Below are positions 21,378 to 33,472 of a stretch of 36,404 nt of DNA, piece by piece (within the stretch, counting starts at the first letter, position 1; every line of letters starts with the position of its first letter). Position numbers and translations under genes: made by a program. The stretch spans positions 1 to 36,404 of the forward strand of contig JAIXPV010000586.1 in the NCBI GenBank assembly GCA_027486105.1, written 5' to 3'. The notes under the pieces are model-generated. The model was not told where the DNA came from and did no database searches. It saw only the letters and a list, made by a program, of their open reading frames with translations. This stretch comes from Runella sp. (GTDB taxonomy: Bacteria > Bacteroidota > Bacteroidia > Cytophagales > Spirosomataceae).

Positions 21378-22919
21378 ATGCTTTCAAAAACCTTCGGCAG
21401 TGCAGTGTATGGCGTCAATGCCACTATCATTACCATTGAAGTAACAGTAGGTCAGGGAATGCGTTTTTTTATGGTGGGATTGCCCGACAGTGCCGTAAAA
21501 GAAAGTGAACAGCGGGTGGAAGCATCGCTGAAATACTTTAATTACCGCATGCCTCGCCAAAAAGTGGTGGTTAATCTGGCGCCAGCCGATATTCGGAAAG
21601 AAGGCTCAGCGTATGATCTGCCCATCGCACTGTGTGTACTTCAGGCCTCCGACCAATTGGTCACCCACAAAAATCTGGAAGACTACATCATCATGGGAGA
21701 ACTTTCACTTGATGGCAACCTCCGCCCCATCAAGGGGGTATTGCCCATTGCCATCGAAGCCCGTAAATTAGGATATAAAGGGTTCATTCTTCCCGCTGCC
21801 AACGCCCACGAGGCGGCGATTGTCAATAACCTAGACGTGATTCCCGTCGAAAACCTCAAAGATGCCATCGAGTTTTTTGAAGGCACGCAAGACATTACAC
21901 CCATAACCATTGATACCAGGGATATTTTCAATAGCACCCTCAACGAGTATGATGCTGATTTTGAACATGTTCAGGGACAGGAGAACATCAAACGCGCACT
22001 CGAAATTTCGGCCGCGGGTGGGCACAATGCCATTATGATTGGCCCTCCAGGCTCTGGAAAAACGATGTTGGCGAAGCGCATTCCGTCCATTTTGCCACCT
22101 TTAACGCTTCACGAAGCCCTCGAAACGACCAAAATACATTCCGTTGCGGGCAAATTGGGCACCAAAGCCGCGCTTATTTCACGGCGGCCGTTTCGGGCAC
22201 CCCACCATACCGTAAGTGATGCCGCCTTGGTAGGCGGGGGGTCGTTTCCCCAACCAGGCGAAATCTCCTTGGCACATAACGGGGTGCTATTTCTGGATGA
22301 ACTTCCCGAATTTAAACGTACCGTTTTGGAAGTAATGCGGCAACCGCTCGAAGAACGCCGCGTAACCATTTCTCGCACCAAATGGGCCATTGAGTTTCCC
22401 GCTAATTTTATGCTCATTGCGAGCATGAACCCTTGCCCTTGTGGTTATTATAACCATCCTGAAAAAGAATGTGTCTGCCCACCAGGGGCGGTGCAGCGCT
22501 ATCTGAACAAAATCAGCGGCCCGCTCCTCGACAGGATTGATTTGCACGTTGAAGTCACGCCCGTTTCGTTTGACCAAATTGCCTCTACCCGCAAATCTGA
22601 AAACAGCGCCGCCATCCGCGAGCGCGTCATCAAGGCCCGCCAAATTCAAACCGAGCGCTTTAAAGAAAATACAGGTATTTACTGCAATGCTATGATGCCA
22701 TCGCAAATGGTAAAAGAAATCTGTGACATAAATCCTGCGGGCAAGGTCTTGCTCAAAACCGCCATGGAACGCCTCGGGCTTTCGGCGCGGGCGTACGACC
22801 GTATACTGAAAGTATCACGCACCATTGCGGACTTAGCCGCCAGTCCCGACATCAAAATTGAACATTTAGCCGAAGCCATTCAGTACCGAAGTTTGGACCG
22901 GGAAAGTTGGGCGGGGTAG
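21378..22919 (+). CDS. YifB/ComM family Mg-chelatase-like AAA+ ATPase
   Basis: This 513-residue protein matches YifB/ComM throughout. It has an N-terminal Lon-protease-like ChlI fold ([20 protein letters not shown], about 33-52), then the AAA+ core with Walker A GPPGSGKT (222-229) and Walker [13 protein letters not shown] (about 298-309). The Zn-like Cys cluster [20 protein letters not shown] and the C-terminal Mg-chelatase helical domain ([20 protein letters not shown]) complete it. ComM is a hexameric branch-migration helicase that helps integrate DNA during natural transformation. No other competence gene is in the window. It has a start typical of the family and no close promoter match. 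The A/T-rich GmrSD gene starts 36 bases after its stop. Confidence 0.93.
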
Positions 22920-22940: not shown

Positions 22941-22948
22941 TAAATTTG
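22941..22948 (+). promoter_or_regulatory. Promoter -7 box of the GmrSD-like gene, near-leaderless
   Basis: TAAATTTG (22941-22948) is an exact TAnnTTTG box ending only 7 bases before the ATG at 22956. Transcription would begin at or within about three bases of the start codon. No TTG is at the normal -33 spacing, so support comes from the box alone. Confidence 0.45.
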
Positions 22949-22955
22949 CACTACT

Positions 22956-24653
22956 ATGTCAAAAATATTCTTCGAACAATCAAGACCTACATTTTCGGAA
23001 ATTATAGGTAACGGAAAAACCTTTGAAGTTCCTAATTATCAACGAAATTATAGTTGGCACTATGATGAGTGGGAGGATTTGTGGTTAGATATTGAAGAGC
23101 TCAACTCAGACGACAATCATTACATGGGTTATGTTGTTCTTAAGCGTACGCCCAATCCTAAACATTATGAAATAATTGACGGACAACAACGAATTACAAC
23201 GCTAAGTATTATTTGTCTGGCATGTATTAGTCTGTTACAAGATTGGATAAACGACAATATTGAGGCTGAAGACAATCGAAAAAGATTAGAATTAATACGA
23301 ACAGGTTATATCGGCTTTTTGGAAGGGCGTACGCTGGTTACTAAAGCAAAGCTAAGGTTGAATCGGATAAATGAATACTTTTTCAGAAGCTACTTAGTTC
23401 AGTTGCGTAAACCCAGCAATATAAGCAGCGAAAAACCTTCCGTTCAAAAATTATACAAAGCTTTTACTTATTTTAAAAAAAAGGTAGAAGAAAAGTTTGA
23501 ATCAAATAAATCTGGCGCGGCTTTGTTTGATTTTGTAGACGGTAATTTAGGTAGTAATTTATTCTTCACACTTATTGAAGTAGGTGATGATACAAATGCT
23601 TACAAAATTTTTGAAACTCTTAATGCACGAGGGGTAAAACTGTCGGCTTCTGATTTACTGAAAAATTATTTATTTTCTCTAATCTTATCTGATTCACCTG
23701 CATTGGTAGAAGATTTAGATATGAAATGGGACGCCATAAACGACATTCTGGGAAATACAGAAGTTACTACCTATTTACGCCATTATTGGAATGCTCGCCA
23801 AAATAAAATCGAACGAAAATCCACCTTATTCAAAGCGTTAAAAAGAAAAGTGGCTAAGCAACAGGAAGCATTGGACTTATTAAACAGCTTGGAAGAAAAT
23901 GTTAGTGTATATGCAGCGTTAAGTGATGAAAATAATGCATTGTGGTCGGATGATGAGAGAAAATCCATTAAAGAGCTGAATTTATTTGACGTAACTCAGT
24001 GCTACTCTTTATTGCTTGTCGCGAAAGAGAAGTTAGCACCTAGCGAATTTGTAAAGCTACTTAAGGATATAGTTGTCATAAGTTTTAGGTATAACATCAT
24101 AGGCGGACAAAATCCTAATGAGTTGGAAAGAGTATATAACGACGCTGCCAACAAAGTGTTCAGGGGAGAACTAACAGCCGCAAAGGCAATTTTTAAATCA
24201 TTGGAAAGCGTATATATAGCGGATACAAATTTCAAAAATGACTTTGCTACAAAATCAATTAATACAAATAAAGCAAATCAACTCGTTAAGTATATCCTCT
24301 CAAAACTCGAAAGACAATACGGAGGAAACGAAATAGATTTAAACGATAAGTCGGTAACGATTGAACATATTCTACCCGAAAAGCCAACGGATGAGTGGAT
24401 TGAGGCGTTCCACAACACAGATACTTCCCAATATATCTACCGAATCGGAAATTTAACATTATTAAAAACCAATACTAATAATACTGTTGGAAGAAAACTC
24501 TTTGCAGTTAAATACCCTGAATACAAAAAAAGTGATTTTAAATTAAACAATTCACATCTTGAGTACGATAAATGGGATGCAAGTACAATAAGCAGCAGGC
24601 AAAGAGACATGGCTACAAAAGCTATCTCCATTTGGAAAATAAATTATTTGTAG
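22956..24653 (+). CDS. GmrSD-type DUF262/DUF1524 endonuclease (predicted phage defence)
   Basis: The 565-residue protein joins the two parts of GmrSD (type IV modification-dependent restriction) in one chain. The N-terminal DUF262 has PNYQRNYSW (26-34) and the ParB-like nucleotide-binding DGQQR (75-79), followed by FETLNARGVKLSASDLLKNY (about 218-238). The C-terminal DUF1524 HNH-type nuclease has IEHILPE (469-475, catalytic His471) and RIGNLTLL (496-503) with a downstream N-x2-N...F..K pattern. The family cuts DNA with sugar-modified cytosines such as glucosylated hydroxymethylcytosine. Target specificity here is unknown. Codon use is visibly more A/T-rich than in the flanking yifB and amine oxidase genes. 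It sits in a tight slot (36 bases after yifB, 12 bases before the convergent gene), which suggests horizontal gain. No partner genes are nearby. Confidence 0.88.
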   Translation: MSKIFFEQSRPTFSEIIGNGKTFEVPNYQRNYSWHYDEWEDLWLDIEELNSDDNHYMGYVVLKRTPNPKHYEIIDGQQRITTLSIICLACISLLQDWINDNIEAEDNRKRLELIRTGYIGFLEGRTLVTKAKLRLNRINEYFFRSYLVQLRKPSNISSEKPSVQKLYKAFTYFKKKVEEKFESNKSGAALFDFVDGNLGSNLFFTLIEVGDDTNAYKIFETLNARGVKLSASDLLKNYLFSLILSDSPALVEDLDMKWDAINDILGNTEVTTYLRHYWNARQNKIERKSTLFKALKRKVAKQQEALDLLNSLEENVSVYAALSDENNALWSDDERKSIKELNLFDVTQCYSLLLVAKEKLAPSEFVKLLKDIVVISFRYNIIGGQNPNELERVYNDAANKVFRGELTAAKAIFKSLESVYIADTNFKNDFATKSINTNKANQLVKYILSKLERQYGGNEIDLNDKSVTIEHILPEKPTDEWIEAFHNTDTSQYIYRIGNLTLLKTNTNNTVGRKLFAVKYPEYKKSDFKLNNSHLEYDKWDASTISSRQRDMATKAISIWKINYL

Positions 24654-24665
24654 CCATTTATCTCT

Positions 24666-26036
24666 TTACGTCACATCCCTATATAACTCCTCTACAACCC
24701 TACGGCCCGACTCAATCGCACCGTGAACTGTGCCGCTGTGGCCGCCGTAGTGCGTAGCTTCGCCCGCAAAATAAACTTTGCGCTGTACAGGCAACGACAG
24801 CGTTTGGCGGGTTAGGAGTCCGCCGCCACCCACGATGGGGTATGAATAAGCGCCCTTAATAAACGGGGCTTTACCCCAATCCATGAGACGGGCATTGGTA
24901 AGGGCACCAGAGGCAACACCTTTTCCATAAATCACATCTAACTCTTTGATGATACTTTGAATCGCCGCCGCGCTCGATTGCGCACTGAGGGCTTCGGCTC
25001 TTTCACCCATCGTCAAACCCGTCAAAACAAAGGATTTTGTGCTGCGCCCGTTTGAACTTACCCGATATTCGGGCACTGCGCCAGAAGTATACACTGAATC
25101 GGTGGCAGCATCCCAAAAACGTTGATTAAACTCCAATATTACTTTAATTCCCGCCCCCATACCAATACTCCTAATAGAAGCAATCTTAGATTCTGGAAGC
25201 GCGGGAGTAAACTGTAAATCAGTGCTTTGTAATACAGCAAGCGGCACCGTTATAATCACTTTGTCTACATAACGCCGCTGGGCTTGGGCATCTTCCAACA
25301 TGATGCGTTCGTTGGTATAATCAATACGCTTGATTTGCGTATTAAGTACAACTCTTGGCAGTATGTTTTTGAATTTTTCTTCTAAAACCGAAGTTAACGA
25401 GCGGTTTGCGAGCAAAAACTCTCCCTCTCCCGCAGACCAAGCTTGGCGCTCCTCCGTCGTACCCAAAACACTCAGGCGGTTGGCCGACGTACCGTGGGCA
25501 TTGGCCACCAAAGCATCGGCGATGTGCCGCACTCCTGTCGCTAATTTGGCCGATTCCATGTATTGAAGCAAGGTAGTGTCGGCGCCCGAATAATTCATAG
25601 CCTGTTGAGCCAAAGACACGGCGGCTTTGAAATCGGCGTTATTGCCCCATTGGGTTTCGGAAAGAACTTGATTACCAATTTGATAGAAATCTATCGAGGT
25701 GTTGGGCACAAAAGAAGCACCCGATTCTTTGACCCAATCGTACCACAGCGAGCGGTTTCCTTGAATTTTTTCGGCACCCAGTTCAATATCGAAATCTGTA
25801 AAACCTTTCAGCGAACGAATTCGTCCGCCAATCTGGTCAGCCGCTTCATAAATGGTATAATTTGCTTTCTTTTCTGCCAACAAATAGCCAGCATACAGCC
25901 CCGCCGCCCCCGCTCCGATAATAGCAATCTGTCCTTTGTACTCTCGCTCCGCATAGGGATCTTCTTCTTTACAACTGCCAAAGGCAATGGCTCCAGTGGT
26001 AAGGACGGTATTTTTGATAAAATCGCGACGTTGCAT
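24666..26036 (-). CDS. Tat-exported FAD-dependent amine oxidase
   Basis: The 456-residue protein starts MQRRDFIKNTVLTTGAIAFG and then SC. This combines a twin-arginine signal with a lipobox-like cysteine at residue 22, so it should be exported folded with FAD bound. The dinucleotide-binding GAGAAG (41-46) is followed by YEAADQIGGRIRS. The C-terminal FAGEATHYGGHSGTVHGAIE is the flavin-contact motif of monoamine oxidases. It should oxidise an amine (or related substrate) to an imine with release of peroxide; the substrate is not predictable. It is convergent with the GmrSD gene and 78 bases downstream of folK. Confidence 0.88.
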   Translation of the reverse strand: MQRRDFIKNTVLTTGAIAFGSCKEEDPYAEREYKGQIAIIGAGAAGLYAGYLLAEKKANYTIYEAADQIGGRIRSLKGFTDFDIELGAEKIQGNRSLWYDWVKESGASFVPNTSIDFYQIGNQVLSETQWGNNADFKAAVSLAQQAMNYSGADTTLLQYMESAKLATGVRHIADALVANAHGTSANRLSVLGTTEERQAWSAGEGEFLLANRSLTSVLEEKFKNILPRVVLNTQIKRIDYTNERIMLEDAQAQRRYVDKVIITVPLAVLQSTDLQFTPALPESKIASIRSIGMGAGIKVILEFNQRFWDAATDSVYTSGAVPEYRVSSNGRSTKSFVLTGLTMGERAEALSAQSSAAAIQSIIKELDVIYGKGVASGALTNARLMDWGKAPFIKGAYSYPIVGGGGLLTRQTLSLPVQRKVYFAGEATHYGGHSGTVHGAIESGRRVVEELYRDVT

Positions 26037-28448: not shown

Positions 28449-29009
28449 ATGAAAAATTCATTGAAAGATACACTTCCGCAGTATTGCCCGCCTGAATCGG
28501 TCTGGGAAAATATTGAGCAGGCTCTCAATGAAGCGCCTTTGCAGGAAGCCCTGAGCAAGCTACCCACCTACGAGCCGCCCGTTCAGGCTTGGGTGGAGAT
28601 TGCCGCACAACTGCCAAACTCACCAAGAACGTGGTGGCGATATGCGGCCGCCGCCGCCGTGGTGTTGGCGGTAGGAATTGGTGGGTATGTGGCCATGCAA
28701 CCAAACGCCGAAAAGGCAGCTATTTCGTATTCACAGGAAAAAATCAATCCCAAAACAAGGGTCGCCCCAGACGAAACCATTGACCAACAATACGCTCAAT
28801 TACAGGCACTTTGCAAAGACAAAGTAACGATTTGTGAAAAGCCTGAGTTTAAACATCTCAAACAAGAACTCGACAATCTTACGGCGGCAAGCAACCAACT
28901 CAAAGACGCGCTCGGCTCGTACAATACTGATGCAACTTTGTCGGCTCAACTTTCTGAAATTGAGCAAGAACGCGCCGATATTCTTCGAAAACTTAATGAA
29001 AGAATATAA
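28449..29009 (+). CDS. Putative anti-sigma factor, single-pass membrane protein
   Basis: Starting at ATG 28449 (MKNSLKDTLPQYCPPESVWE), the 186-residue protein has a cytoplasmic N-terminal helix-rich part of about 70 residues. One membrane segment follows (YAAAAAVVLAVGIGGYVAM, about 77-95), then a periplasmic coiled-coil-like tail (FKHLKQELDNLTAASNQLKD, LSEIEQERADILRKLNERI). The topology and the place directly after an ECF sigma gene are those of Bacteroidota anti-sigma factors. No ZAS-type zinc motif is visible, so the role is inferred from context. The frame also opens at 28401, but that start lies inside the intergenic hairpin repeat and adds 16 atypical residues. Confidence 0.65.
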   Translation: MKNSLKDTLPQYCPPESVWENIEQALNEAPLQEALSKLPTYEPPVQAWVEIAAQLPNSPRTWWRYAAAAAVVLAVGIGGYVAMQPNAEKAAISYSQEKINPKTRVAPDETIDQQYAQLQALCKDKVTICEKPEFKHLKQELDNLTAASNQLKDALGSYNTDATLSAQLSEIEQERADILRKLNERI

Positions 29010-29859: not shown

Positions 29860-31167
29860 ATGCAAAAGTTATTATTTTTTTATTTGATAATCACCAGTTC
29901 CTCTTTACTGATGGGGCAAATAGACAGCACTCACCTCAAACATACTCAACAAGCAGGAACACTTGAAAAACAGGAATTTGTTTCTGCGGCTGATTATATT
30001 TTCAAAACTCATGAAGAAAATACGTGGTTACTAAAAGCCAATTATACTGGTACACTTACCGGCCGCTCTGTCAAGGGTGATTTAGAATACACGCTGGAGA
30101 TGGGAGGAGAAGTAAAATTAAGCCCTTCCTTCTCCATCAATGCTTTGATGGGATATAATCACAAATCCGAAGAAGTTGTTCGAGGGTTTGTCTATGGGCA
30201 GATAGAGCCAAGGTGGTATTATAACATGGCCAAACGTATTTCTAAAGGCCAAAGTGCCAATAATTTTTCGGGAAGTTACTTTTCCGCTAAAATCATGAGA
30301 TTTACCAAGCGCCATCCTGAAGAAAGCCAAACCCAGATTATTCCCCAAGATCGCTTCCTGCTTTCTTATGGTAAGCAGTATCGAATGTTTAAACACGGAT
30401 TTTTCGATTTCAGCCTAAATGCTGGTTGGCAAAAAGACAGAAAGTACACTCCCCAATATGTTTATGACAATCTCAGACAAAGGTATCAACTCACGGGTTC
30501 ACAACTAACCCCCCAACATGGTTTTGTGGTAAGTTCTGAAATTAGGTTAGGACTGACTTTGAGCAAATTAAGTCCAAAAACGAATGTTACTACTTGCGAT
30601 ATTTTTAGATGTTTTGAAGAAGAGTATCGCATGTTTAAGATAGATATGACAAAGCTTTTTTATATAGCGCCAAACAATGCAACCATCTCTTTATCAACAG
30701 CCTATGAACAAAAAATCAAACAGTCAGCATGGTCACTTAATCAGGAATTTCGGATGGATTATGGCTATCATTACAATCATACTGTTTTTTCTGCCACTAG
30801 CTCTAGTACTGAAGAAAGTAATGGTTTTACCTTGCGCTATGTCATAGAACCTCGATACTATTACAGTCTCAAAAAAAGAATCTATCAGGGCAAGTCTGCC
30901 AACAACCTTTCTGGTACCTACGTAGCGCTACACCATGTCAACACCTTTTATTATACTTTTTTGAACTTGAGTGCGGCTGATGCTCATTTACGCGCCCGTT
31001 TTGTTTCCGCCCTAGGGGCCGTTTGGGGCGTACAGCACCGGCTTTTTTCAAAAGGATTTGTAGATGCAAAAATTGGCGTTGTGCGCAAACTCAACGAACG
31101 ATTTCACGATTTTATCATCCCAGGTGTTAACCCTATTTTAGATATTAAGGTCGGCTTCGCCCTCTAA
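29860..31167 (+). CDS. Predicted outer-membrane beta-barrel protein, paralogue A (internally duplicated)
   Basis: The 435-residue protein has a signal peptide (cleaved near residue 20, ...SLLMGQ) and a start-of-mature motif HTQQAGTLEKQEF shared with the next gene. Two halves repeat the same pattern. First PRWYYNMAKRISKGQSANNF (118-137) then YGKQYRMFKHGFFDF and a closing EIRLGLTL. Again PRYYYSLKKRIYQGKSANNL (331-350) then WGVQHRLFSKGFVDA and DIKVGFAL at the very end. The alternating aromatic strands and the terminal F-A-L fit an outer-membrane barrel. Function unknown. It follows the adhesin-like gene by 18 bases and precedes its paralogue by 12 bases. Confidence 0.65.
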   Translation: MQKLLFFYLIITSSSLLMGQIDSTHLKHTQQAGTLEKQEFVSAADYIFKTHEENTWLLKANYTGTLTGRSVKGDLEYTLEMGGEVKLSPSFSINALMGYNHKSEEVVRGFVYGQIEPRWYYNMAKRISKGQSANNFSGSYFSAKIMRFTKRHPEESQTQIIPQDRFLLSYGKQYRMFKHGFFDFSLNAGWQKDRKYTPQYVYDNLRQRYQLTGSQLTPQHGFVVSSEIRLGLTLSKLSPKTNVTTCDIFRCFEEEYRMFKIDMTKLFYIAPNNATISLSTAYEQKIKQSAWSLNQEFRMDYGYHYNHTVFSATSSSTEESNGFTLRYVIEPRYYYSLKKRIYQGKSANNLSGTYVALHHVNTFYYTFLNLSAADAHLRARFVSALGAVWGVQHRLFSKGFVDAKIGVVRKLNERFHDFIIPGVNPILDIKVGFAL

Positions 31168-31179
31168 ACCTCCATAGCC

Positions 31180-32616
31180 ATGAAAAAATTATCCCTCTTC
31201 CTTTATTCTACTTTCTACCTCCTAAGCTACACCTTCGCCCAAACCGACTCCGTCCGCATTACCCACACGCAGGAGACTGGAACGCTCGAAAAACAGCGTT
31301 TTATAGACCAATATGATTATGTCTTTATGACCAAAGAGCCTACGAAGTGGATGGTGAAGGGGTATGGGAATGTAAATAATTTACTCGGTTCTGAAATTTT
31401 CCAAGGTGGGTATATAAAAAGGACGGTTGATTTTAGAGTGGGCGTAGAACGAAAGTTAAGTCCTTCCTTTTCTATTGCCATAGAAGCAGCTCGAAATCCT
31501 ATTTCTACGTTTAGAAAAAATGGCTTTTTTGATTATTCAGATTACTATTCAACCAGCCGCAAACGGTGGGTTACATCCGCCGAACTGAGGTGGTACTATG
31601 ACATGGCAAGCCGCATCAGACAAGGAAAAAACAGCAACAATTTTTCGGGGAATTATCTGTCGCTCAGATACGAAAGAGTCTGGCAAAATGAAAATTCTGT
31701 TGCTACGGGGTTTTCAGGCACACATGGCAAATGGAATACCGACTATTTCGGCAGTTATTACCATTCTCAACTCAGTCTGAATTATGGTATCCAACGACGT
31801 TTTTTCAGATACGGTCTTATTGATTTTTCGATTGGATTAAATCGAAACACTGACCAGCTAATCCACCGAAAATATACTTTTTTAAATGGGGACAATTCAA
31901 TCAAGCAACCTATAGATTGGAATAACATTCAAAGCAGTTCTACATCCACTCCGCAGCACAATTGGTCCATCACGACTAATTTTAAAGTAGGTTTAGCCTT
32001 GGCTGACTTTAAAAAAGCCTCAGAAGTCGCCCCCAGACAAGTCTTCCAAACACTTGAAAATGAAAATCAAATGTTGAAAATTAGTTGGCCCAGAATATTA
32101 CTCAGCACTTCTGCTCAGACATTTAATGGAAGTATTGGTTACGAACAAAAAATTGCCAAATCTGCGTTTTCAATCAACACTTATTTGAATTTCTCCTTCT
32201 ATAACTCTTTTATAAAAAACACCACAATATACGATCCTGCGACAAAAACAAACTTTACAAGTAATAGTCAAAGCTCAAGCATTGGCGGCTTTTTACATCT
32301 TCAGCCACGTTGGTATTTTTTGATGAATCGTCAGGTGGCTCTGGGAAAAACTGGTACTAATTTATCAGGAGTTTATGCGGGCTTGAACAATGTTGGTTTT
32401 GGTTCATACGGGTTTTCAAAAAACGACCTATACAAAAACACGTTTAGGTTCTCTCCCATTTTTGTAAATACAGGCTTGTTAATGGGCTATCAACGGAAAT
32501 TATTTCAAAAGGGCTTCATTGACATAAACCTCTCAAAAGGGCTAATTAACCGTCATCCTTATTTACTTGGTCCAAGCAACTTCATTTTTGACTTCAAACT
32601 CGGCTTTGCCCTCTAA
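31180..32616 (+). CDS. Predicted outer-membrane beta-barrel protein, paralogue B (internally duplicated)
   Basis: This 478-residue protein parallels the preceding gene: signal peptide (to about residue 20, ...SYTFAQ), HTQETGTLEKQRF, then two homologous halves. The first contains LRWYYDMASRIRQGKNSNNF and YGIQRRFFRYGLIDF and closes with FKVGLALADF. The second contains PRWYFLMNRQVALGKTGTNL and MGYQRKLFQKGFIDI and ends DFKLGFAL. It is longer than paralogue A through loop insertions. A membrane barrel is predicted, but transport or sensing roles are open. Context in the ECF operon suggests envelope function under sigma control. Start ATG 31180 lies 12 bases past paralogue A's stop. Confidence 0.65.
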   Translation: MKKLSLFLYSTFYLLSYTFAQTDSVRITHTQETGTLEKQRFIDQYDYVFMTKEPTKWMVKGYGNVNNLLGSEIFQGGYIKRTVDFRVGVERKLSPSFSIAIEAARNPISTFRKNGFFDYSDYYSTSRKRWVTSAELRWYYDMASRIRQGKNSNNFSGNYLSLRYERVWQNENSVATGFSGTHGKWNTDYFGSYYHSQLSLNYGIQRRFFRYGLIDFSIGLNRNTDQLIHRKYTFLNGDNSIKQPIDWNNIQSSSTSTPQHNWSITTNFKVGLALADFKKASEVAPRQVFQTLENENQMLKISWPRILLSTSAQTFNGSIGYEQKIAKSAFSINTYLNFSFYNSFIKNTTIYDPATKTNFTSNSQSSSIGGFLHLQPRWYFLMNRQVALGKTGTNLSGVYAGLNNVGFGSYGFSKNDLYKNTFRFSPIFVNTGLLMGYQRKLFQKGFIDINLSKGLINRHPYLLGPSNFIFDFKLGFAL

Positions 32617-32676
32617 ACCTCCACAGCCATGAAAACCACCCCTTTAGAGAAGGTCTTCTTTAAAATGTCACTTTGA
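32592..32676 (+). repeat. Duplicated gene junction with a truncated third start
   Basis: The end of paralogue B plus spacer (cggctttgccctctaaacct then ccacagccATGAAAA) repeats the paralogue A/B junction at about 31150-31186 almost exactly. The ATG at 32629 then opens only 15 codons (MKTTPLEKVFFKMSL) before TGA. This looks like the scar of a third tandem copy that was lost. Confidence 0.6.
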
Positions 32677-32732
32677 TTATTTATCACTGAACCACGCCCA
32701 AAAGCATCCCTGCATTTTTTGGCGTTTTTATG

Positions 32733-32740
32733 TACTTTTG
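32733..32740 (+). promoter_or_regulatory. Promoter -7 box of the MNT/HEPN pair
   Basis: TACTTTTG (32733-32740) matches TAnnTTTG and predicts transcription from about 32747, 10 bases before the ATG at 32757. This argues against an earlier start in the same frame at 32730. No TTG is at the usual -33 distance. Confidence 0.4.
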
Positions 32741-32756
32741 TCAAAAAGACATTGGT

Positions 32757-33095
32757 ATGAGTCACCGCGCTATTCCTTCCGAACTCAAATCGTTGCTGGC
32801 AGATCTTAAAAAAGGGCTATTGGATTTATATGGTGAACGTTTACATCAGGTGATTCTCTTTGGCTCCTATGCCCGTGGGGAACAGCGTGAGGAGTCGGAT
32901 GTAGATGTACTGGTAGTTCTGAATGATGAAAAAATCCATCCTCTTACCGAAATAAGCAACATGTCGTTGATGAACAGTGATTTAGGATTAAAATATGATA
33001 AATGGATTTCAACCATCCCAGTAGTCAAAACTCGGTTTTCTTCATTGAAACTACCGTTATATGAGAATGTAAGAGAAGACGGTATAGAATTATGA
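32757..33095 (+). CDS. Minimal nucleotidyltransferase (MNT antitoxin)
   Basis: From ATG 32757 (MSHRAIPSELKSLL) the protein has 112 residues and one nucleotidyltransferase domain. It shows ILFGSYARGEQREESDVDVL, carrying the GS-x2-R and SDxD catalytic signature. A third acidic position may lie near YDKWIS. Small MNT proteins of this kind modify and silence their HEPN partner. The stop overlaps the start of the HEPN gene (ATGA at 33092-33095), a typical toxin-antitoxin junction. The frame also opens at 32730, but the predicted promoter overlaps that part. Confidence 0.85.
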   Translation: MSHRAIPSELKSLLADLKKGLLDLYGERLHQVILFGSYARGEQREESDVDVLVVLNDEKIHPLTEISNMSLMNSDLGLKYDKWISTIPVVKTRFSSLKLPLYENVREDGIEL

Positions 33096-33472
33096 ATTCT
33101 CTGATCATTTTTCAAAAAGCGGAAGACTGTTTGCAGGATGCAACTGATTTTTTGGAGCAAGGGCGTTATGAAGCTAGCGTAAATCGCGCGTATTACGCTA
33201 TTTTTCATTGTATTCAGGTTTTACTTTGGATAGAAAACATTCATACTAAATCTCACGAAGGAGCTCATAATCAATTCCGATTGAAATACATTAAAACGGG
33301 GATTTTTCCATTGGATTCTAATATTTGGCTACAAAAATCTTATGAAAAGAGACGATTTAGCGACTATGATTATGACGACATTATCTCTGAAGAAGCCAAT
33401 GAATCCGTAGAAAATGCCAAAAACTTTTTTAATATAACTTACCAATTCCTGAGTCAAAACTCCCACCTCTAA
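33092..33472 (+). CDS. HEPN domain protein (toxin)
   Basis: The 126-residue all-helical protein has the HEPN core NRAYYAIFH (31-39), in which Arg32 and His39 form the R-x6-H pair typical of HEPN ribonucleases. The N-terminal helix LIIFQKAEDCLQDATDFLEQ and the RYEASVNRAYYAIF block match the PF05168-type HEPN family. With the overlapping nucleotidyltransferase it forms a predicted toxin-antitoxin module: RNase silenced by nucleotidylation. Its stop codon (33470-33472) directly abuts the thrB start at 33473, so translation of the two may be coupled. Activity is inferred from family. Confidence 0.85.
   Translation: MNSLIIFQKAEDCLQDATDFLEQGRYEASVNRAYYAIFHCIQVLLWIENIHTKSHEGAHNQFRLKYIKTGIFPLDSNIWLQKSYEKRRFSDYDYDDIISEEANESVENAKNFFNITYQFLSQNSHL

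Follow-up and report, generated by a model that had tools for sequence, protein, structure and literature searches.

The locus raises the question of how a single AT-rich gene for a restriction-like nuclease came to stand between two genes of ordinary composition, and what it does there. The window analysed here is a stretch of 36,404 nucleotides from Runella sp. (contig JAIXPV010000586.1). By ORF call, the gene occupies positions 22956-24653 of the forward strand and encodes a protein of 565 aa. The slot is bounded on the left by yifB (21378-22919, forward strand; TIGR00368, E 4.5e-192), which is separated from the gene by 36 bp, and on the right by a convergent flavin amine oxidase gene (24666-26036, reverse strand; PF01593), the end of which lies 12 bp past the end of the nuclease gene. 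The preliminary description had called yifB a transformation helicase gene, which is too strong, as it is shown here as a gene for a YifB-family AAA+ protein (TIGR00368). The reading preferred for the locus, to which a probability of about 0.7 was given, is that the gene encodes an anti-phage nuclease that acts alone as one protein and belongs to the HEC-06 subgroup of the fused GmrSD family; the nearly leaderless gene would have settled once in this slot, to be kept in some lineages and lost in others.

The gene was identified as a fused GmrSD-type (DUF262-DUF1524) nuclease gene using Pfam, PADLOC and an AlphaFold model. Both expected Pfam domains were detected above cut-off in a single chain, which bore out the first description of the protein: the DUF262/GmrS NTPase-like domain (PF03235, GmrSD_N; residues 14-240, positions 22995-23675, forward strand; E 2.5e-38, 132.6 bits) and the DUF1524/GmrD His-Me finger (HNH) nuclease domain (PF07510, GmrSD_C; residues 422-554, positions 24219-24617, forward strand; E 1e-26, 93.9 bits). 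Members of the GmrSD family display the motifs QR, DGQQR and FxxxN in GmrS, and (E/D)H(I/L/V)xP, GNLxLLxxxN and K in GmrD (PMC4619093). In the GmrS part, Q29-R30, D75-R79 and F219-N223 were invariant in the homologue alignment; D75-R79 is the nucleotide-binding motif DGQQR (residues 75-79, positions 23178-23192, forward strand) and F219-ETLN the conserved FxxxN motif. The longer motif P26-x-Y28-Q29-R30 was conserved in the alignments of 13 and 24 homologues, with Y replaced by F in some of them. The GmrD part contains EHILPE (residues 470-475, positions 24363-24380, forward strand) with the catalytic-type H471 and with E in place of the consensus Q, GNLTLLKTNTN (498-508) and K519. E470, H471, G498 and N499 were invariant in both alignments, and N508 in that of 13 sequences; N499, within GN, and N508 (positions 24450-24452 and 24477-24479, forward strand) complete the H-N-N signature. 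The AlphaFold model had a mean pLDDT of 86.7. In a fold search with this model, DndI (PDB 9jfl) was the nearest solved fold (TM 0.73/0.70, E 1.7e-18), followed by SspE.

The best PADLOC model was HEC-06 (PDLC04154; E 1.7e-207, positions 1-567 of the 569-position profile), with the model 'Orf5' as a close runner-up (E 1.1e-185). HEC-06 is reportedly the Hma-embedded candidate of Payne et al. 2024. Judged by its profile match, the protein is a further member of this known single-protein defence family, with which it shares the layout of one gene, one protein and a match over the full profile. It differs in that the Runella gene stands alone after yifB, outside any Hma or other defence cluster, and in its near-leaderless promoter. 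The term 'solitary', which had been applied to it, holds for the locus and not for the genus, since gene-carrying relatives hold 4-5 DUF262 proteins.

The promoter is predicted from a sigma-A -7 box of the type TAnnTTTG, TAAATTTG, at positions 22941-22948 of the forward strand, on the basis of its sequence, the position of such boxes in Flavobacterium and its conservation. Seven bases separate TAAATTTG from the ATG at 22956, which is the first possible start because an in-frame TAA lies inside the box (22941-22943). In Flavobacterium psychrophilum (PMC9723704) and F. johnsoniae (PMC6847099) such a box lies at -12 to -5, and transcription is therefore predicted to start at about 22953, leaving a leader of about 3 nt. 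Leaders of this length are infrequent in the phylum but have been described: leaders under 10 nt account for 3.7% in B. thetaiotaomicron (PMC7366714), leaderless ones for 5.5% in F. psychrophilum (PMC9723704), and in F. johnsoniae 13% lack a leader longer than 10 nt (PMC6847099). Across 415 genes of the host's family, TAnnTTTG was enriched upstream of starts with a peak 20-40 nt before the start, and to judge from these sequences it is a real promoter element in the family; only a handful of the 415 genes, the nuclease gene among them, had it within 10 nt of the start. No -33 element was evident upstream of the gene. Box and spacing were kept in the three other Runella copies (G006, G009 and G012), including that of G006, which is 90% identical and has diverged in sequence farther upstream. 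The near-leaderless promoter thus stands as a conserved sequence feature, and the box probably serves as the promoter of the gene. The idea that it is common to the HEC-06 family was rejected, as homologues at other sites have no box within 10 nt.

The distribution of the gene was established by comparing the slot in relatives. It was found between yifB and the amine oxidase gene in four of 13 Runella genomes, namely G000 (the window), G009, G012 and G006; G009 and G012 encode proteins 98.6% identical to that of G000 on the amino acid level, and G006 one of 89.7%. In seven genomes, including G002 and G011, the amine oxidase gene comes directly after yifB. The slot region is rearranged in one genome (G004), and in another (G010, L066) it contains a pair of degenerate transposase-like ORFs and, after them, a short second copy of the yifB 3' end. 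A match beside yifB was found in 0/188 other Spirosomaceae genomes, coordinates having been compared where both were listed. The gene is thus accessory and sits at a precise slot, as had been proposed; it is neither present in all relatives nor of normal composition. In searches of more than 1300 genomes, the best relative outside the four carriers was 44% identical. A phage or plasmid origin was rejected, as relatives on plasmids, phage records and viral contigs were at most 41% identical and provided no near relative or donor. Pieces of a GmrSD relative were observed in G002 (L130, C4:511378-513284); they are 51% and 37% identical over short stretches and may be what is left of a decayed copy.

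The age of the gene was estimated from its divergence. In the comparison of G000 with G006, synonymous change has reached saturation in the nuclease gene (pS 0.76) as well as in yifB and the amine oxidase, esterase and DUF4293 genes (0.68-0.74), while dN amounts to 0.054 in the nuclease gene, 0.059 in yifB and 0.167 in the amine oxidase gene. Saturated synonymous sites together with a low dN mark the nuclease gene as one that has long been in place under constraint of the housekeeping kind, and not as a recent insertion. It is old, evolves vertically and is under strong purifying selection. Within the close trio (G000, G009, G012), its synonymous divergence is lower than that of yifB (0.14-0.19 vs 0.36-0.49), so that occasional transfer between close species may have taken place.

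A tree of four flanking genes placed G006 outside the group formed by G002 and G000/G009/G011/G012, with a node support of 91/96 on DNA and no resolution on protein. On the DNA tree, the non-carriers G002 and G011 fall inside the clade of the carriers, and three changes are required whichever way they are counted, either a single gain with two losses or two gains with a single loss. The gene has apparently been lost at least once. Two gains are compatible with these data because the deep node with G006 as sister is well supported on DNA only. Separate arrivals of related alleles at the slot, at least one in the G006 lineage and one in that of G000/G009/G012, for example by recombination via the conserved flanks, would account for both the two gene-free genomes inside the clade and the three changes. 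This history is nevertheless judged improbable, as the junctions are alike (40 and 42 nt past the last yifB codon), the promoter box and its spacing are the same, and no source allele was seen. A single settlement in the ancestor of several Runella species, followed by strong purifying selection in carriers and loss in some lineages, would explain the same pattern and is preferred.

The gene had been described as A/T-rich and inserted after yifB. Its GC content is 34.3%, compared with 50.5% and 48.8% in the two adjacent genes and mostly 44-53% in the remaining window genes. The four copies have a GC content of 31-35% and a GC3 of 0.23-0.33, and the carriers' flanking genes have 44-51% GC. A second AT-rich stretch (GC 35-40%) was observed in the window at 29860-33472, where two long ORFs (at 29860 and 31180) gave no Pfam match; the ORFs at 28834 and 29860 are highly variable among relatives (28-91% identity or absent), and 29860-like ORFs are duplicated in G011. 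Synonymous third-position changes were polarised by majority in G000/G009/G012, which makes a crude test on three genomes. Changes from AT to GC were 3.3-fold rarer in the nuclease gene than in the four flanking genes (22/378 vs 129/679 sites, p=8e-10), this being one gene whose overall synonymous change is below that of the flanks, and changes from GC to AT were equally frequent (39/186 vs 157/726, p=0.92). At equilibrium, a GC3 of about 0.22 is expected for the gene and of 0.46-0.48 for its neighbours. This deficit, in combination with equal change in the opposite direction, means that the gene is not ameliorating. As it is also AT-rich in every carrier, the argument from AT-richness to recent insertion fails. 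The kept AT-richness may stem from selection favouring AT-rich codons or from GC-biased fixation being absent in a gene of the accessory kind. It is suggested, tentatively and with considerable doubt, that a long-resident defence gene may be held at an AT-rich equilibrium of its own because AT-to-GC changes fail to fix, for instance through absence of GC-biased conversion in a presence/absence gene or selection for low expression.

The slot after yifB had also been proposed as a recurrent insertion site. Conserved neighbouring gene pairs were surveyed in genera represented by five or more genomes (Runella with n=12, including the window genome, which was added by hand). The yifB 3' junction was occupied in 5/12 Runella genomes, in 2/4 of g9 and in 2/8 of g17, in total 9/24 genome-junctions from genomes that are not phylogenetically independent, vs 6/117 for the control junctions not touching yifB. 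The yifB 5' junction was variable too in g53 (6/17). The contents of the 3' junction are mixed: GmrSD, transposase, Uma2, AAA_14/DUF4143 (PDC-S01), acyltransferase, DUF4349, OmpH and DUF6438, with BREX once. In g53 (L177-L207), a Uma2-family gene of 185-229 aa directly follows yifB in 14/21 genomes and other genes do so in the rest. In G120 and G142 (L169, L175), a PDC-S01 gene with a GC content of 0.42 lies 8 bp after yifB and separates it from the gene that is its immediate downstream neighbour in the other g17 genomes. In G030 (L073/L225), brxB and brxC of BREX begin about 0.8 kb after yifB; an insertion is not demonstrable in this case because the gene that normally comes next in the family did not turn up within 20 kb. 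Simple counting of PADLOC hits returned numerous matches at the 3' side, including AbiEii and PDC-S27 (no genome attached), vs one weak match at the 5' side. These raw counts were set aside because they are inflated by likely housekeeping look-alikes, such as cysteine desulfurase taken for DndA/SspA, SNF2 helicase for DpdE/ZorD and SMC-like ATPase for mad3. A defence island was rejected as well, few other defence genes being present around 12 homologues. It is concluded that the yifB 3' junction tolerates insertions; a dedicated defence hotspot is not concluded. The proposed recurrent site is therefore weakly supported, the junction being more variable than its neighbours and its contents mostly non-defence.

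Recent acquisition of a foreign gene, with AT-richness as the mark of its insertion at a defence hotspot by yifB, would fit the gap in GC content to the adjacent genes (34% vs about 50%), the presence in only four Runella genomes and the variable junction. It is however very improbable. The saturation of synonymous sites in the gene, as in its flanks, largely refutes it, and neither the substitutions, which are not heading towards the host GC content, nor the lack of any relative above 44% identity outside the carriers in more than 1300 genome searches, nor the mostly non-defence slot contents agree with it. Of the earlier picture of an AT-rich inserted gene, the AT-richness and the accessory status stand and the recent arrival does not.

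With regard to function, the reading as a long-resident anti-phage nuclease was compared with known systems. HEC-06 proteins are reported to be antiviral (PMC12988326) and to act as single proteins, unlike TgvAB (PMC11411939); TgvAB of Vibrio cholerae also has a GmrSD-like nuclease, made of two proteins instead of one. Eco94GmrSD and BrxU/HEC-05 (GmrSD type IV) share with the Runella protein the DUF262-DUF1524 fusion and the DGQQR and H-N-N motifs, but they belong to another subgroup and have glucosylated or hydroxymethylated cytosine as substrate. At least three cytosine modifications each make DNA a substrate for BrxU (PMC8565348), which was not among the fold-search matches of the AlphaFold model. 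DndI (9jfl), of the IscS-DndBCDE-DndI system, is the closest solved structure over the full length; its domains come in the same order and carry the same motifs, and the structural alignment shows about 18% identity, but it has dndBCDE partners that the Runella locus does not have. SspE has the same domains and a similar HNH region, but it is longer, belongs to SspABCD-SspE and gave a weak sequence match. DndI and SspE are NTPase-gated nickases of anti-phage systems, and DndI senses phosphorothioate (PMC11662687), not modified cytosine. A phosphorothioate partner system was rejected: no dndC was found above cut-off in six Runella genomes, including three carriers that are 99-100% complete, and no dnd or ssp genes stand beside the nuclease gene among the window genes scanned.

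In the preferred reading, the DUF262 domain, with its PxYQR, DGQQR and FETLN motifs, would bind and hydrolyse a nucleotide and thereby gate the C-terminal His-Me finger nuclease, which would nick or cut DNA recognised as foreign. The gene's own TAnnTTTG promoter would give a nearly leaderless mRNA. The enzymatic activity, the DNA target and the phage protection are predictions; an attack on modified phage DNA is plausible from family membership, and such DNA would be the likeliest target because HEC-06 proteins are reported antiviral, BrxU cuts DNA with modified cytosine and the carriers searched lack dndC above cut-off. A further and very improbable reading, a DndI/SspE-like effector that tells phosphorothioate self DNA from foreign DNA, can draw on the DndI fold and on the match of P26-x-Y28-Q29 to the PT-sensing P23-x-Y25-Q26 of DndI, but is opposed by the lack of dndC above cut-off in six Runella genomes and of adjoining dnd/ssp genes, by the damage that DndI causes in cells without PT (PMC11662687) and by the QR of this motif being shared by DUF262 proteins at large.

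Close relatives whose slots are empty or occupied (G011 vs G009 and G012) make natural pairs for comparing the protection that a lone HEC-06 protein may give in Bacteroidota. AT-richness is routinely taken as evidence for recent horizontal transfer of defence genes. This locus speaks cleanly against that practice, and with matched controls, as an AT-rich gene kept between two GC-normal genes. If this were true in general, defence genes would in many cases be AT-rich at a steady state, and their composition would not point to recent transfer.
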